Of a stretch of 64,000 nt of DNA, positions 24,417-47,419 are shown in pieces. The stretch lies in the IMG/VR virus record IMGVR_UViG_3300024319_000005, positions 35,223 to 99,222 of that record; one strand, 5' to 3'. The notes below the pieces were generated by a model that had not been told where the DNA came from, did no database searches, and worked only from the letters and a program-made list of their open reading frames with translations. This DNA is from a virus. Within the stretch, counting starts at the first letter, position 1. Each line of letters begins with the position of its first letter. The position numbers and the translations under genes are program-made.

Positions 24417-24740
24417 ATGACTTTTAATGATTTGTTAGACACTCTTAACGTTAACTCTCTTTCTTTAACAATGCAGAAAGATTTAGACGGTATTGAGACT
24501 GGGTATGCTACTCAGTGGGATGCTTCTACTCGTACGAGAGTAGTTATGTCTCCTGAAGCCCTTGCAGGTGCTTCAGACCCTTCTGTTAACAACTTCGTTG
24601 TTATTCCTTCTTCATTAGTTTCTAAGGACAAGACTGTCCTTAACAAAGAGACTGGTGCTGAAGAAACTATTAAGGGACAACCTTATGTGAATAACTTCGT
24701 TATTCTCGGTGAGCCAACTATTACGTTTGGCAGACACTAG
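24417..24740 (+). CDS. First early protein, unknown, biased to C-ending codons (107 aa)
   Basis: The protein (start MTFNDLLDTLNVNSLSL) has no known domain. It is acidic-neutral, with a repeated short phrase VNNFV at two places (about residues 58-62 and 91-95). Codon use differs from neighbours: Asn is AAC six times and AAT twice, and Phe TTC and Asp GAC are frequent, whereas the replication genes prefer AAT and TTT. Together with a strong promoter this suggests very high early expression. A host-takeover role is a guess. Confidence 0.65.
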   Translation: MTFNDLLDTLNVNSLSLTMQKDLDGIETGYATQWDASTRTRVVMSPEALAGASDPSVNNFVVIPSSLVSKDKTVLNKETGAEETIKGQPYVNNFVILGEPTITFGRH

Positions 24741-24754
24741 ACTTTGATACACTT

Positions 24755-24776
24755 CCTCTGAGCTTCGGCTCAGGGG
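24755..24776 (+). other. UUCG-tetraloop hairpin after the first early gene
   Basis: CCTCTGAGC-TTCG-GCTCAGGGG gives a 9-bp stem with one G-T pair and the very stable UUCG loop. There is no T run, so it is more likely an mRNA 3'-end protector or processing product than a terminator. Confidence 0.65.
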
Positions 24777-24786
24777 ATTAAAGCTT

Positions 24787-24820
24787 GACCTGAACATGTC
24801 GCAAACTGTTCTATTTTTTT
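24787..24820 (+). ncRNA. Hairpin with conserved 12-base loop, copy A
   Basis: TTGACCT then GAAC (24792-24795), loop ATGTCGCAAACT, GTTC (24808-24811) and a T-rich run. A second copy at 25193-25231 keeps the flank and loop core ATGTCGCAAA but changes the stem to GAGT/ACTC, a two-pair compensatory change. Confidence 0.65.
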
Positions 24821-24821
24821 G

Positions 24822-24927
24822 TAGTACATTGGAGATAATACATACGACGGTATGAATCCATAGCATAACTGGGGTCGAAAATGATAAGTCAACGATGTAC
24901 TTATTGATGCGCCAATGTACTATTTTT
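24822..24927 (+). ncRNA. Candidate structured non-coding RNA closed by an 11-bp helix
   Basis: TAGTACATTGG (24822-24832) pairs perfectly with CCAATGTACTA (24912-24922). Inside are two more helices, CATAC-GACG-GTATG (24841-24854) and ATAAGT/ACTTAT with a 9-base loop (24884-24904), leaving an unpaired core around CTGGGGTCGAAAATG. Five T residues follow the closing helix, like a terminator. No sizeable ORF runs through it on the plus strand. It resembles no riboswitch or ribozyme I know. Confidence 0.65.
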
Positions 24928-24962
24928 ACCTAACGGTAAAAACTTGTCACTTTTAAAAAGTG
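24923..24962 (+). other. Two back-to-back hairpins
   Basis: TTTTTACC-TAAC-GGTAAAAA (24923-24942) and CACTTTT-A-AAAAGTG (24948-24962) follow the structured RNA. The first overlaps its T run, so it could extend or compete with termination. Confidence 0.6.
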
Positions 24963-24963
24963 T

Positions 24964-24979
24964 TATGACATCGTAGTTA
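24964..24979 (+). repeat. ATGACATCGTAGTT motif, copy 1
   Basis: TATGACATCGTAGTTA is shared, with one or two changes, with 25364-25380 and 25404-25420. Here it precedes the 56-aa gene by about 40 bases. Confidence 0.55.
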
Positions 24980-25019
24980 TAATTACGTTACGGTACATTT
25001 ACTAATCTTTAAATAATTC

Positions 25020-25190
25020 ATGATTATGATGCATTTGGATACTGTTATTAAACTAGACAGTTTACAAGACCTTTGGACTATTGACACTAATGCTCAGTTT
25101 GAGACTATGAGTGGTATAGATACTGAGGGTACTTACATAGTCTTTTATAAGATAGGTAAGCAATACTACAGTGTAAGACTAAACTCTTAA
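25020..25190 (+). CDS. Small early protein (56 aa)
   Basis: ATG at 25020 (further in-frame ATGs at 25026 and 25029) opens a 56-residue frame, MIMMHLDTVIKLDSLQDLW through YYSVRLNS, ending in TAA. It is compact, soluble and without a known motif. It is followed after two bases by the second copy of the conserved-loop hairpin, as the 107-aa gene is followed by the first, so gene plus hairpin looks like a repeated unit. Confidence 0.5.
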   Translation: MIMMHLDTVIKLDSLQDLWTIDTNAQFETMSGIDTEGTYIVFYKIGKQYYSVRLNS

Positions 25191-25192
25191 TA

Positions 25193-25231
25193 AGCTTGAC
25201 CTGAGTATGTCGCAAAAGACTCAATTTTTTT
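25193..25231 (+). ncRNA. Hairpin with conserved 12-base loop, copy B
   Basis: Flank AAGCTTGACCT as in copy A, then (T)GAGT (25203-25206), loop ATGTCGCAAAAG, ACTC(A) (25219-25222) and a T-rich run. The stem bases differ from copy A but still pair. Confidence 0.65.
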
Positions 25232-25254: not shown

Positions 25255-25326
25255 ATGGAATACACAATAGAAGAACTCATTGCAGAGGTACAAGCTTTAA
25301 CTGATTACTTAACTTGGCTAGATTAG
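25255..25326 (+). CDS. Possible 23-residue peptide
   Basis: ATG at 25255 to TAG at 25324 encodes MEYTIEELIAEVQALTDYL-TWLD, an acidic amphipathic helix. Its stop codon lies inside a hairpin TGGCTA-GAT-TAGCCA. Too short to be sure it is translated. Confidence 0.3.
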   Translation: MEYTIEELIAEVQALTDYLTWLD

Positions 25327-25361
25327 CCAGGTTAAACAGTTGGTTAAATACCTTTAGAAAG

Positions 25362-42613: not shown

Positions 42614-43981
42614 ATGTGTGGAATTAGTGGAGCTATAGGCTCTAAAATAGACATGGAAAAAGTTAAACTATTAGGTTTACTTAATGAAGATCGAGGCGGT
42701 GACGCTGTAGGTATTTATGCTAATAAAACAGTATCAAAAACAATTAAAAGTTATTATCATCTATTACAACAAGATGACTTTCCTAAAAAAGCAAAGGGGA
42801 TAGCCTTAAATCACTCTAGAAAAAGCTCTAGTGGAGGTAATAACATATTAAATGCACAGCCATTAATGGTAGATAATGATGTATTTGTATTAAATGGTAC
42901 TGTAAAAAATATAAATACTTTAGAAAGAATTACAGGAATAGAAGAAGAGCAGTTAGATAATGATACAGCTTATTTGTTTAGGTTAATGAGAGCTGGTAAC
43001 ACTGAATGGTTAAAATACTATACAGGTGGAGCTACTTTTGTATACAGACATAAAACTAAAACTACGTTTTGGGTCGGTGCTGCTAATGGAAAAGTAGAAA
43101 GACCTTTAAGTTTTTGTTATGTAAATGGTACTATGTATTTTTCATCTTTAGAACGAGATTTAAAATTAGTATCAGGAAATAATAAGATTACTCATTTTAA
43201 AGTAAATACATTAATTACTGTAGATAATGAAGGTAATATTGTATTAGAAGAACCTATTGATAGAACTATACCTCATATTGAGCTTAGTAATTTACAAAAG
43301 AAACTTCTTGCTTGTCCTTATAATGAAAGCTATTCTACTTTAGAGTCTTTAAACGCTGGTAATAATGTAGTAATATTTTGTGGAGGTGCTTATTATTTAA
43401 ATAATGAGTTTTATACAGGTAAAGCTAAACTTGATAAGCATTCTAAACTTATTAAAACTACTATGCAAGACTCTATGGCAACTTATTTCTTTAAAAATGG
43501 CATATTAGTAAAAGACAATTTCTTTAAAAGTGGGTATAATAACAGTCATTTAGCATTGTATTCTAATACAGGTTATGACGAACCTACAATTGAAGATAGA
43601 ATTGTATCTAATGCTCATACTATTGGGTTAAGTGATTCAGATTATGGATTAATACAAGATTCTATGAGTTCAGAAATGTTATATTATAGTGCAGATTTAC
43701 ATAGTCATTTTTACAATGGAGCTTTAGCTGATGGAATTATTAGTCCTATTGGTTCTTCAACTCATTACCATTTTAGTAATGGTCATTTTGTAAAGATGTC
43801 TTATTACTCTCCAGAAGAATTTATGGACAAAGTAGAAGATCTACATAATGATATAGATAATTTACTATATGAATTTGATTTAGAAGATTTAGATGTCGAA
43901 GGAGCATCAATATTTGAAACTTTAAAACAATACAAACAATATGTTAAGAATAGTAACGAAGAGTGGAAGAGTATTACTTAA
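42614..43981 (+). CDS. Class II (Ntn) glutamine amidotransferase with long C-terminal domain (455 aa)
   Basis: It starts MCGISGAIG, with Cys2 as the N-terminal nucleophile after Met removal, then NHSRKSSSGGNN and VLNGTVKN, the substrate and oxyanion loops of GlnB/GatA-type glutaminases. The first 200 residues are this domain. The remaining 250 residues are not familiar. It would hydrolyse glutamine and pass ammonia to a ligase. The 41-base overlap with the amidoligase that follows fits a two-protein complex. Confidence 0.88.
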   Translation: MCGISGAIGSKIDMEKVKLLGLLNEDRGGDAVGIYANKTVSKTIKSYYHLLQQDDFPKKAKGIALNHSRKSSSGGNNILNAQPLMVDNDVFVLNGTVKNINTLERITGIEEEQLDNDTAYLFRLMRAGNTEWLKYYTGGATFVYRHKTKTTFWVGAANGKVERPLSFCYVNGTMYFSSLERDLKLVSGNNKITHFKVNTLITVDNEGNIVLEEPIDRTIPHIELSNLQKKLLACPYNESYSTLESLNAGNNVVIFCGGAYYLNNEFYTGKAKLDKHSKLIKTTMQDSMATYFFKNGILVKDNFFKSGYNNSHLALYSNTGYDEPTIEDRIVSNAHTIGLSDSDYGLIQDSMSSEMLYYSADLHSHFYNGALADGIISPIGSSTHYHFSNGHFVKMSYYSPEEFMDKVEDLHNDIDNLLYEFDLEDLDVEGASIFETLKQYKQYVKNSNEEWKSIT

Positions 43982-45383
43982 AAGTGCTTGTACTCTAATT
44001 AATAATGAATGGTATGAAGTAGGTAACCGTAATAAATTTGAAAGTGGTGAAGTATATCAAATTGGAGCAAAGTTTAATTTTGCTAATGAACTATACTGGA
44101 ACGCTAATAAGAAAAGATATTACAGACTTACTGAAAATATAGCATATGGGTATAGCAAAACTTTTAATAATTTATGCCATTTTAAAAAGACAAAGTATAC
44201 AGTTAAAATAGATAGGTATAAAGAGTTGTTTCTAGAAGATTATAGAGATTTTCCTACTATGAACTATAATGGTAGATTTAACATTTTTATGGAAGGTGAA
44301 CCATCTGCTTATGTAGTAAGTTATGATGATTACAATACAAGGCTGTATGGTGCTGATGATAACATAATGTTTGATAAAGCTTGGGCAGCATACCAAATAA
44401 AAACTCAAGTAGCTGCCGCAGAAGAAAATGTACCTAAAGTTAACATAGTGCCAGAACTATTTGATTATAGTTTTGGAGTAGAGTTTGAAACTTCTTCAGG
44501 ATCATTACACAGTACTATGTTAGAAGATTCTTTCTTAATACCTGTAAAAGATGGTAGTATTGATGGCTATGAGTATATTAGTGTGCCTATGCAAAATGAA
44601 TTAGACACTTTAAAAACTCAATGCCACTATTTATCTAGACAATGTAATGTAAATAAAAAGACAAGTACTCATATACACTTAGGTAACTTACCTAGAACTA
44701 AAGAGTTTGCACTTTCTTTTTACATACTTATGTATAGATTTCAAAATGAGATCAATGCAATGTTTCCACCACTTAAAAAGTTACTTAGATCTTTAGATGA
44801 TCACGGTAACAAAGAAGCAAAGGATTACTGTAAGTTTCTACCTGAGTTAAATTTAATGTATGGTAGGCATTATATAGATAGAAATGGAGAAATTGACCAA
44901 GATGAGTTAGATGAAGGATACAGAGATCTTTGGACTTTCTGGAATGATGGAGAAGCTCCTAGTGAAAATTTCAACCCACAAAATAGAACACACCGCAAAG
45001 CTCATTTAGCTAAATGGAACTATGTAAATAGGTATTCTATTGTGAATATGAACAATTATTTTTTTACTAATTCTAGAACTATTGAGTTTAGATACCATGA
45101 AGGTACATTAAACTTTGGTAAAGTTAGTAATTGGATTTTATTGAACATAGCGTTTGTAAAATTTGCTGAAAATCATGCAAAAGAAATACTTAGTAGTAAT
45201 ACTAAGATTACATTTAAGGATATTTTATCCGAACTAGGTAATAAAAGCCTAGAAACACATTTAAGTGATTATATTTACGAAAGAAAAACTGAAATGAGTA
45301 GACATTACTCTGCACAGAATCCTTTTTATCAAATATATGACTTAGATAAAACAAAAGAATGCACATGGCAAAATCTGAAGTAG
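43941..45383 (+). CDS. Amidoligase type 2 (GCS/GS fold, 480 aa)
   Basis: The catalytic part begins near residue 175: FGVEFET (Glu181, Glu183), DGSIDGYEYIS (Asp204), TSTHIHLGN (His244, His246), and RTIEFRYHEGTLN, the Amidoligase_2 signature. The first 170 residues are an extra N-terminal domain. The fold is that of glutamine synthetase/gamma-glutamylcysteine synthetase, forming amide or isopeptide bonds with ATP. Its direct partner is the class II amidotransferase upstream. Confidence 0.87.
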   Translation: MLRIVTKSGRVLLKSACTLINNEWYEVGNRNKFESGEVYQIGAKFNFANELYWNANKKRYYRLTENIAYGYSKTFNNLCHFKKTKYTVKIDRYKELFLEDYRDFPTMNYNGRFNIFMEGEPSAYVVSYDDYNTRLYGADDNIMFDKAWAAYQIKTQVAAAEENVPKVNIVPELFDYSFGVEFETSSGSLHSTMLEDSFLIPVKDGSIDGYEYISVPMQNELDTLKTQCHYLSRQCNVNKKTSTHIHLGNLPRTKEFALSFYILMYRFQNEINAMFPPLKKLLRSLDDHGNKEAKDYCKFLPELNLMYGRHYIDRNGEIDQDELDEGYRDLWTFWNDGEAPSENFNPQNRTHRKAHLAKWNYVNRYSIVNMNNYFFTNSRTIEFRYHEGTLNFGKVSNWILLNIAFVKFAENHAKEILSSNTKITFKDILSELGNKSLETHLSDYIYERKTEMSRHYSAQNPFYQIYDLDKTKECTWQNLK

Positions 45384-45823
45384 CAGCCAAAAGAGGTAGA
45401 GTAAATAGGAGAAAAGGACACGATTATGAAAGACTAATTGTGAGAGTACTTAAAGATTTAGGCTGGACTAAAGCAATGTCTACAAGAGCATGTAGTAAAC
45501 TACTTGACGATTGTAAAATAGATATTGCACCTAATGGTCCAGTTACTGATAATTTAGATTTTCTAATACAATGTAAAGCAGGGTATATAAAGCAAAGACC
45601 CAAAGCTGATGTTGAATTTAGAAAAATGCTTGAAGGTTTGAGCGAGTATTTTCCTTCCGATCATACAATATTTAAAGCAAAAAAGTTTTTAATGCACAAG
45701 TTTGGCAGAAAAGATGAAGAACATCTTGTCACAATGACATTTAAAGACTGGGTTGCAATAATGCAAGAGTTAGTCTCATTAAGAGAAAAACATGTGGAGC
45801 AAGAAAAACCAGATAACAATTAA
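45359..45823 (+). CDS. PDDEXK-type nuclease, Holliday-junction-resolvase-like (154 aa)
   Basis: The pattern KGHDYERLIVRVL, then KLLDDCKIDIA and DFLIQCKAGYI matches a PD-(D/E)XK fold (Glu in helix 1, Asp in strand 2, Gln-x-Lys in strand 3). ATG codons at 45359 and 45365 are both possible starts, the second giving MAKSEVAAKRG. It may resolve branched DNA in recombination, and it interrupts the amide cassette between an amidoligase and the ATP-grasp gene. Confidence 0.75.
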   Translation: MHMAKSEVAAKRGRVNRRKGHDYERLIVRVLKDLGWTKAMSTRACSKLLDDCKIDIAPNGPVTDNLDFLIQCKAGYIKQRPKADVEFRKMLEGLSEYFPSDHTIFKAKKFLMHKFGRKDEEHLVTMTFKDWVAIMQELVSLREKHVEQEKPDNN

Positions 45824-46451
45824 ACCAGGCATTCAATATCAAAACAAAAGCTTACAATACCTATACCCTAGTATTAGATTAACTAACAAAAGCATTTATG
45901 CTTACTTGTTAAATAATTTTGAAATACTAGGGGTAGGTGTAGGCGATTTGGCATACGATATTAAATCTACTTTAGACGATACTTTTTATATCCTTGTTGA
46001 TGTTTATGGAGTCTATAAAAATGGATCCTACATACAAGAAGATTACTATAGAAGAAAGTTTGAAACAGGATTAGCTATGATTAAACAAAAAAAAGGGTTT
46101 GTAACAGACTATACTTTTAAAGATAATCAACATATGATAGTAATAAATTTACCATACTCTAATATGAAGATTGATTTTTTACAAGGTAACTATAGTTGTA
46201 TTTACCCAGAGCCTCAAGAAATTGATTTATTATTTCCAAAAAGTAGAATGCTAAAAAAGATTGAAGTTAGAAATCAAGATAATTTAGTACTGCATAAAGA
46301 CGTACAAGCTAGACCTAAGTTTAGGGAGCTGTTACGCAATGAATTTGGATTTACTGAAGATGTTGAAAGAGATGTCGAATTTGATTTACCACCTTTATTT
46401 AAAGAAGAGGTGTTTAATCACCATTTATTAACAGAATTAATGACATTCTAA
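45792..46451 (+). CDS. Unknown protein before the ATP-grasp ligase (219 aa)
   Basis: No recognised domain. Mixed alpha/beta with a conserved-looking centre (FLQGNYSCIYPEPQEIDLLFP) and acidic C-terminus. Overlaps the nuclease by 32 bases and shares a base with the ATP-grasp start, so it is probably a partner or substrate-binding protein of that ligase. Function unknown. Confidence 0.6.
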   Translation: MWSKKNQITIKPGIQYQNKSLQYLYPSIRLTNKSIYAYLLNNFEILGVGVGDLAYDIKSTLDDTFYILVDVYGVYKNGSYIQEDYYRRKFETGLAMIKQKKGFVTDYTFKDNQHMIVINLPYSNMKIDFLQGNYSCIYPEPQEIDLLFPKSRMLKKIEVRNQDNLVLHKDVQARPKFRELLRNEFGFTEDVERDVEFDLPPLFKEEVFNHHLLTELMTF

Positions 46452-47419
46452 TGAACCAAAATATAATGCCTAATAAAGAAAAGCTAATACTAACTGGTAA
46501 GCATGGAAGACCTTCTACTATAGAAGCTTTTAAAGATTGCCAGTTAGGAGAATTAGTACAGCGTAGGCAGTTTACAAAGAAAAATGGAAAGTTTGTTAAG
46601 TACTATAGAGTATTTGATCAGCTAAACAAAATTAATTACAGAAAGCATAAAACAAATAGAATAAATGCAAAAGATTCTATAGTTCTTAGGTGGGGTACAC
46701 AAGAACCTTTTGATACTAATAACAAATCAATAGTTTACAATAAGATACCTGGTCTACAAAATGCAACTAATAAAGGCTTATCTAGAGTCTTAATGCATAA
46801 AGCAGGAGTTAGAGTACCTACAATTATTACACCTAAAAATATAACAGAAGATCATCTACCTATTATTAGTAGACCTTTTGTACATAGTAAAGGTAAAAAC
46901 TTTATAGTATTAAATACTATTAAAGAATTCAATGCACATTATAGTCCTGCAACTCATTACTATGCAGAGTTTATAGATAAGCAGTTAGAATTTAGAGCTC
47001 ATGTTGGTCATGGTAAAGTACTAAGGCTAATGGCAAAGCAAAATCCTAACAATGGTAACTTAGCTTGGAATATTGCCGCCAATAGAGGAGGTAATGTAGC
47101 AGAAGATGTAGGAGGGTTTAAAGTTATTCGTTGGAATAACGCAGAACCTTATTTAGATGTGCTAAAACAATCAGTACATGCAGTTGAAGCTTTAGGATTA
47201 GACTGCGGTGGGGTAGATGTAATGTTTAAAGATGGTAAAGCTTATGTTCTTGAAGTAAATACAGCTCCTACTTTAAACTCATGTCCTACAACAGCTAAAC
47301 GATGGGGCATGTATTGGAATTGGTTATTTAATTCTGAGTCTAGAAGAGATCATTATGATTGGAGAATATGGCAAAAAGCTAAATCTTTCTTTTTTAAAAA
47401 CGAACAATTAATAAATTAA
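46451..47419 (+). CDS. ATP-grasp ligase, RimK-like (322 aa)
   Basis: The ATP-grasp core is visible as GLSRVLMHKAG, then YAEFIDKQLEFRAHV, and GGVDVMFKDGKAYVLEVN, with Asp256, Glu268 and Asn270 as metal-binding residues. These enzymes activate a carboxylate as acyl phosphate and join it to an amine, as RimK does with glutamate. It ends the amide cassette. Phages with COOH-NH2 ligases often carry a similar ATP-grasp gene. The acceptor is unknown. Confidence 0.88.
   Translation: MNQNIMPNKEKLILTGKHGRPSTIEAFKDCQLGELVQRRQFTKKNGKFVKYYRVFDQLNKINYRKHKTNRINAKDSIVLRWGTQEPFDTNNKSIVYNKIPGLQNATNKGLSRVLMHKAGVRVPTIITPKNITEDHLPIISRPFVHSKGKNFIVLNTIKEFNAHYSPATHYYAEFIDKQLEFRAHVGHGKVLRLMAKQNPNNGNLAWNIAANRGGNVAEDVGGFKVIRWNNAEPYLDVLKQSVHAVEALGLDCGGVDVMFKDGKAYVLEVNTAPTLNSCPTTAKRWGMYWNWLFNSESRRDHYDWRIWQKAKSFFFKNEQLIN

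Follow-up and report, generated by a model that had tools for sequence, protein, structure and literature searches.

A compact stop-proximal RNA pseudoknot in a crAss-like phage and its relatives in many other phages

Introduction

The window analyzed here, a stretch of 64,000 nucleotides from the IMG/VR virus record IMGVR_UViG_3300024319_000005, belongs to a crAss-like phage whose terminase shares 29% identity with its counterpart in Cellulophaga phage phi14:2. At the start of its rightward early gene block, beside the divergent region bordering the leftward structural genes, an initial annotation had marked two hairpins with a conserved loop and flank and a stem that changes from GAAC/GTTC to GAGT/ACTC. 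It took the two coordinated changes as direct evidence for selection on RNA or ssDNA structure and suggested that the loop is recognized by a protein or another RNA. The locus raises the questions of what kind of element this is, how widely phages carry it, and what it might do behind the genes that it follows.

Results

Two copies behind small early genes

The sequence at both sites is exactly as annotated, and each copy indeed lies behind a small gene (stops ending at 24740 and 25190) and before a T-run (T7). The locus comprises the following features, where S1 and S2 are the two helices described below and scores refer to model R2:

24417..24740, + strand: first gene of the rightward (early) block, 107 aa, without family match; its stop lies 46 nt before copy 1
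24752..24779, + strand: UUCG-capped stable hairpin between this stop codon and copy 1, identical in the related contigs L004 and L005
24787..24812, + strand: pseudoknot copy 1 (24.6 bits, E 0.00095)
24787-24789 with 24798-24800, + strand: S1 of copy 1, GAC with GUC, supported by covariation in relatives
24792-24796 with 24807-24811, + strand: S2 of copy 1, GAAC(A) with (U)GUUC
24801-24806, + strand: loop GCAAAC of copy 1
24813..24820, + strand: T-run directly 3' of copy 1
25020..25190, + strand: 56-aa gene 5' of copy 2, with its stop codon 7 nt before S1
25198..25223, + strand: pseudoknot copy 2 (14.2 bits, E 0.43)
25198-25200 with 25209-25211, + strand: S1 of copy 2, GAC with GUC
25202-25206 with 25219-25223, + strand: S2 of copy 2, (U)GAGU with ACUC(A)
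25224..25231, + strand: T-run directly 3' of copy 2

The stretch around copy 1 (24781-24820) reads AAGCTTGACCTGAACATGTCGCAAACTGTTCTATTTTTTT and the one around copy 2 (25192-25231) reads AAGCTTGACCTGAGTATGTCGCAAAAGACTCAATTTTTTT. Two base pairs differ between their stems (A-U to G-C and C-G to U-A), and the joint pattern, found twice in the window, never occurred in 100 shuffles; the whole 99,222-nt record holds just these two copies. Folded alone, the stems are weak (z around 0), so thermodynamics offers no argument here. In copy 2, AG replaces CU just 5' of the 3' arm, and the low R2 score of this copy is due to this rarer form, which elsewhere appears in 3 of 214 copies among the matches listed.

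Covariation among crAss-like relatives

Taken alone, the two coordinated changes are thin evidence, but selection on RNA structure is a firm conclusion once relatives are added. A scan of IMG/VR for exact matches to the 23-nt core gave just seven crAss-like phage contigs including the window, with the stems AAUC/GAUU (L002; L003 is nearly the same phage), GAGU/ACUC (L004), GAAC/GUUC (L005), AGGU/GCCU with a U-G pair (L008) and AGGC/GCCU (L018); relaxed searches near this exact core yielded no further copies. Two-sided changes affect four of five S2 pairs among the seven copies, the covariation score was reached in none of 500 shuffles, and sliding the partners destroyed the pairing. The element lies 3' of the first early-block gene in L018, L008, L004, L005 and the window, though the gene differs. 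Outside the stem arms, 19 bases are invariant across the seven contigs, which are therefore silent on the role of flank and loop; the GAC/GUC pairing in these copies alone is at chance level (P 0.64). Their copies form a variant that is one base shorter in front of AAAC. Between the close relatives L004 (9958-10030) and L005 (240-330), the 5' flank is identical while the whole stem and the CU/AG dinucleotide differ, as though recombination had exchanged the pseudoknot as one piece.

A wider family in unrelated phages

A BLAST search with copy 2 against annotated phages gave weak intergenic matches in Lactobacillus and Bacillus phages. In the Lactobacillus phages phig1e, JNU_P7 and CR191, the element starts 4-8 nt past a stop codon and precedes the gene for head scaffolding; further searching then turned up copies in many Staphylococcus phages. 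The consensus of the Lactobacillus and Staphylococcus copies, GACCTNNNNANGTCNNTAAACTG, matched at least 120 contigs of IMG/VR; for two versions of 30 nt, the matches numbered 133 and 61 phage records, some weak BLAST matches included. Hundreds of phage contigs, and named phages as well, contain the looser core GNCCU-N4-AN-GN'C-NN-UAAACU-N4' (with up to 120 contigs listed per IMG/VR scan, the numbers for the broad patterns are lower bounds; counts are of distinct sequences, not of independent events). Hosts, as assigned from record names, are Mycobacterium, Arthrobacter, Synechococcus, Roseobacter, Lentibacter, Bacillus, Staphylococcus and Lactobacillus, alongside the gut crAss-like phages. Further copies and pairing in related phages, whose absence would have spoken against the initial annotation, are thus plentiful. 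Several records of Staphylococcus phages, L388 (908-944; Staphylococcus phage B166) among them, list the pseudoknot as a BPROM promoter, possibly a false call on its sequence.

The cellular genomes sampled are nearly devoid of the element. No exact core with a pairing stem occurs in 84,980 species genomes, and of 235 bacterial genomes sampled for the broad core, it was found in two of the 121 from Bacilli and in none of the 114 from Gammaproteobacteria; one copy from a bacterial genome, G081 (L640), fits the family, and a CM scan of six bacterial genomes came back empty. A host origin was rejected because the exact core is absent and the broad core almost absent from the cellular genomes sampled.

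Two interleaved helices

Since the flanking GAC is one strand of a second helix, the element exceeds the annotated hairpin and starts at 24787 and 25198, respectively. S1 has three pairs, mostly GNC with GN'C, L1 is CU, and S2 has four to six pairs of variable sequence. Two unpaired bases follow S1 and lead into UAAAC (AAAC in the crAss-like copies), which would cross S1. Although S2 pairing was not part of the search pattern for 127 copies, all four positions pair in 108 of them and three of four in another 17 (among the matches listed). Two-sided cells in S2 number 97 versus 35 in shuffles, and slid structures fail.

S1 was challenged in an unbiased design, by a scan with GBCCTNNNNANGVCNNTAAACTG, which forces its middle pair away from A-U and allows nine combinations. 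The 109 distinct copies with full S2 listed have U-A (95), C-G (11), G-C, U-G and C-C (one each) at this position, so that S1 still pairs in 108 of 109 (among the matches listed). Its outer pair flips as well, with CAC/GUG in Roseophage SIO1 and Lentibacter ICBM1 and CUC/GAG in a Vibrio phage. The invariant bases of alignment A4 were left out of the evidence because they are partly invariant by construction of the pattern.

Each helix thus shows compensatory change, S1 in relatives only, and since the two interleave, comparison across phages establishes the element as a compact H-type RNA pseudoknot spanning some 26-27 nt. RNA is favored over ssDNA, given the frequent G-U pairing (at one S2 pair, 27 of 70 sequences have it). 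Recognition of the conserved loop by a protein or another RNA, as initially proposed, is not required to account for its conservation: Loop and flank pair with each other as S1, with covariation in other phages, and no antisense partner of the whole loop or the whole flank was found in the window. A plain hairpin with a protein-recognized loop is insufficient for the same reason, though a protein may still bind the element. We also rejected a coding reading with ATG TCG CAA as a start, since the frames, read by eye, share only MSQ and the flank is invariant too.

Position behind stop codons

Half of 214 distinct copies among the matches listed start 5-12 nt past a stop codon (counted as the end of an ORF of at least 50 codons), compared to 3% of random same-strand positions. 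The distance has its mode at 6 nt (45 of 214 listed copies), a single copy of 214 lies at 4 nt or less, and about half of the copies are more than 12 nt from a detected stop. UAA makes up 73% of the stops upstream of the element versus 48%. Downstream gene starts are spread (quartiles 28, 85 and 190 nt), and the genes on both sides are diverse, with minor head, Hsp20, DNA polymerase and RNR upstream and scaffold (the commonest family), endonuclease, endolysin, PhoH and RtcB downstream. The anchor is therefore the upstream stop, and the element belongs to the upstream mRNA. Altogether, the element is phage-borne, tied to the stop codon and on the strand of the upstream gene.

T-runs directly follow 57 of 195 listed copies versus 19 of 195 when measured 30 nt further. 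Behind 9 of 214 listed copies, a tRNA gene starts within 60 nt (0.85 expected), in seven cases at 3-6 nt; Arthrobacter phage Amigo and the crAss-like cr124_1 carry the element directly before tRNAs. Contig L411 (IMGVR_UViG_3300028914_000337) packs 16 or more tRNA genes into 6.7 kb, one of which has a pseudoknot 6 nt ahead of it.

Relation to known RNA elements

Neither the window nor the element in eight loci with copies of the wider family has a match in Rfam 15, and no description of such an element was found in the openly accessible literature searched. The closest layout is that of GP20-b RNA (Rfam RF03003), a cis-regulatory candidate of the phage scaffold gene GP20 that reportedly goes back to Weinberg et al. 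2017. Copies in Lactobacillus and Staphylococcus phages sit just 5' of scaffold genes, the alignment of the CR191 copy spans the full GP20-b model, and the GP20-b consensus GUC...GgC could form an S1-like helix, with UAAAA in the same place. However, GP20-b has a second hairpin, whereas the present element is shorter, is not tied to GP20 and is stop-anchored in many phage lineages; the copies in the window lie by small early genes, and most others, too, are not upstream of scaffold genes. The best-scoring relative, Lactobacillus CR191, reaches 24 bits against a gathering score of 36.2, and the window and the other crAss-like copies have no match. On sequence grounds, the GP20-b consensus is compatible with both helices, and together with the sub-threshold CR191 match, this suggests that GP20-b is probably a specialized relative of the present element.

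The coremin/xrRNA_C element of beny-, cucumo- and related RNA viruses is a small 3'-UTR or intergenic element with a 3-bp GUC/GAC helix followed by GUUAAACU (PMC10520033). In that element, the helix encloses a tetraloop (YGAD) or a hexaloop (YGNNAD) and a separate hairpin comes next, whereas the 8-nt loop here, CU-N4-AN, follows neither loop rule and carries the 5' arm of S2, which pairs downstream and makes a pseudoknot. Intrinsic terminators and REP-type 3' hairpins similarly lie past the stop codon, sometimes with a T-run, and have been proposed to protect against 3' exonucleases, but they are G+C-rich hairpins instead of a pseudoknot with a near-invariant core, which does not require the T-run. 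A scan for intrinsic terminators (G+C-rich stem, loop of 3-8, T-run) called neither copy in the window, though both have a T-run. The lambda nut sites (boxA/boxB) and HK022 put combine a linear conserved flank with a small variable-stem hairpin near gene ends. Our element resembles them in this respect, but its flank is base-paired, similarity to boxA is absent, and the element is stop-anchored.

Discussion

A proposed 3'-UTR cap and its rivals

From position and covariation we infer, with confidence and doubt in even balance, that the pseudoknot may serve as a portable, general-purpose, stop-proximal 3'-UTR cap for the upstream phage mRNA. It would be placed as close to the stop as possible without being melted by the terminating ribosome, a notion that fits the sharp lower limit of 5-6 nt, and almost no naked RNA would be left 3' of the coding sequence. 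There it might block 3'-to-5' exonucleases that start at ends which termination or RNase P/tRNA processing creates, such that intact coding sequences with their stop codon would persist; the frequent T-run or tRNA right behind fits an element at the mature mRNA 3' end. In this phage, the short transcripts of two small genes, located where the early block begins, would end with the element. Since many copies lie inside operons with a gene behind them, it could also act downstream. What speaks against a cap is that about half of the copies lie beyond 12 nt of a detected stop, that the AG form and the one-base-shorter loop lower the match of the crAss-like copies (E 0.43 for copy 2) and that S1, invariant in these, has no support on their basis alone (P 0.64).

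The main rival to a cap is a block of the opposite polarity, in which the RNA would stop RNase J or a similar 5'-to-3' exonuclease so that downstream RNA survives, like viral xrRNAs. This reading, though unlikely in our analysis, owes its standing to the position before scaffold genes of Firmicutes phages and to the spacer GACGUUAAACU, identical to that of the plant-virus coremin xrRNA (PMC10520033). The H-type pseudoknot fold, the copies between minor head and scaffold/capsid genes of Staphylococcus and Lactobacillus phages and the rank of scaffold as commonest downstream family are also in line with it. Yet the anchor is the upstream stop and not the downstream start, the T-run or tRNA often directly behind leaves little downstream RNA in need of protection, and the YGAD loop rule of coremin is not followed. 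T-run enrichment could instead point to a factor-assisted transcription terminator, or to an antitermination or RNAP-binding element like lambda nut or HK022 put, given that the L008 and L018 copies adjoin intrinsic terminators and that linear flank and variable-stem hairpin recall boxA/boxB. We consider this even less probable: T-runs follow only the minority of copies counted above, the stem is short and A+U-rich, the terminator scan passes over both window copies, and an RNAP element would not need the sharp 6-nt distance from the stop.

That same distance equals the spacing of about 6 nt known for frameshift-stimulating pseudoknots, which brings recoding or translation coupling at the stop codon into play (read-through, frameshift, or a block of re-initiation or scanning). 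Coremin RNAs indeed stall scanning ribosomes (PMC10520033). Nevertheless, such a role is improbable: At least 50 codons past the stop are open in frames 0, -1 and +1 in 12, 13 and 7 of 95 cases, respectively, versus 12%, 27% and 20% in controls. With no excess of open frames in any frame and with UAA enriched, we rejected read-through and frameshift, while a block of re-initiation is the part of this reading that is possible. Least credible, and very improbable in our view, is a DNA-level element such as a virion RNA polymerase promoter hairpin, a replication initiation hairpin or a recombination site. It would suit the location after the first early gene near the divergent region in five crAss-like contigs and the stem exchange within identical flanks between L004 and L005, but frequent G-U pairs in S2, the pseudoknot covariation, and the conservation of strand and stop-codon spacing across many phages without such promoters all argue against it.

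The cap reading has a broader form that we put forward tentatively, as somewhat doubtful: that one portable, exonuclease-proof pseudoknot of ca. 26 nt, so far undescribed, caps mRNAs behind the stop in dsDNA phages of at least five phyla. If true, this would be a DNA-phage counterpart of viral xrRNAs. It was not to be expected that unrelated phages of Bacteroidota, Firmicutes, Actinobacteria, Cyanobacteria and Proteobacteria share a near-invariant, stop-anchored pseudoknot. This points to one shared way of dealing with mRNA ends during infection; it also provides a short, testable RNA part and should make 3' ends and gene boundaries of phages predictable from sequence.

Other features of the window

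Between the two copies, window positions 24822-24922 (+ strand; z -2.3) contain a perfect 11-bp inverted repeat, TAGTACATTGG...CCAATGTACTA, around two hairpins and then T5, a candidate second structured RNA. Its structure is common to L004, with compatible changes there, and its 13-mer AATCCATAGCATA is repeated in L008, 3' of the L008 pseudoknot. This region has no Rfam match, and the idea of a Y RNA (the Ro60/TROVE partner) was rejected because 13 records contain no TROVE protein gene. Behind copy 2, a very stable hairpin, TTAACTTGGCTAGATTAGCCAGGTTAA (25308-25337, + strand; z -5.0), ends a 23-codon ORF. The sequence ATGACATCGTAGTT occurs three times (24965, 25366 and 25406, + strand), each time before one of consecutive small genes, and these repeats, together with pseudoknots at a spacing of ca. 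400 nt, suggest that a small-gene cassette was duplicated. Further downstream (42614-47419, + strand), genes for a glutamine amidotransferase-like protein, an amidoligase (PF12224) and an ATP-grasp protein cluster in a possible peptide or cell-wall modification cassette of this crAss-like phage.

All element-bearing crAss-like phages examined have TACCCCC (TATCCCC in phi14:2) roughly 60-330 nt 5' of an early gene, and in several of them a following GGGTA could close a hairpin. The motif is a candidate for a leader element or for an early promoter (virion RNA polymerase). The sites are:

Window, 24355: TACCCCC
L004, 9162: TACCCCC
L005, 1119, - strand: TACCCCC
L379, 6160, - strand: TACCCCC
L382, 2179, - strand: TACCCCC
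L383, 5479, - strand: TACCCCC
L077, 1597, - strand: TATCCCC variant
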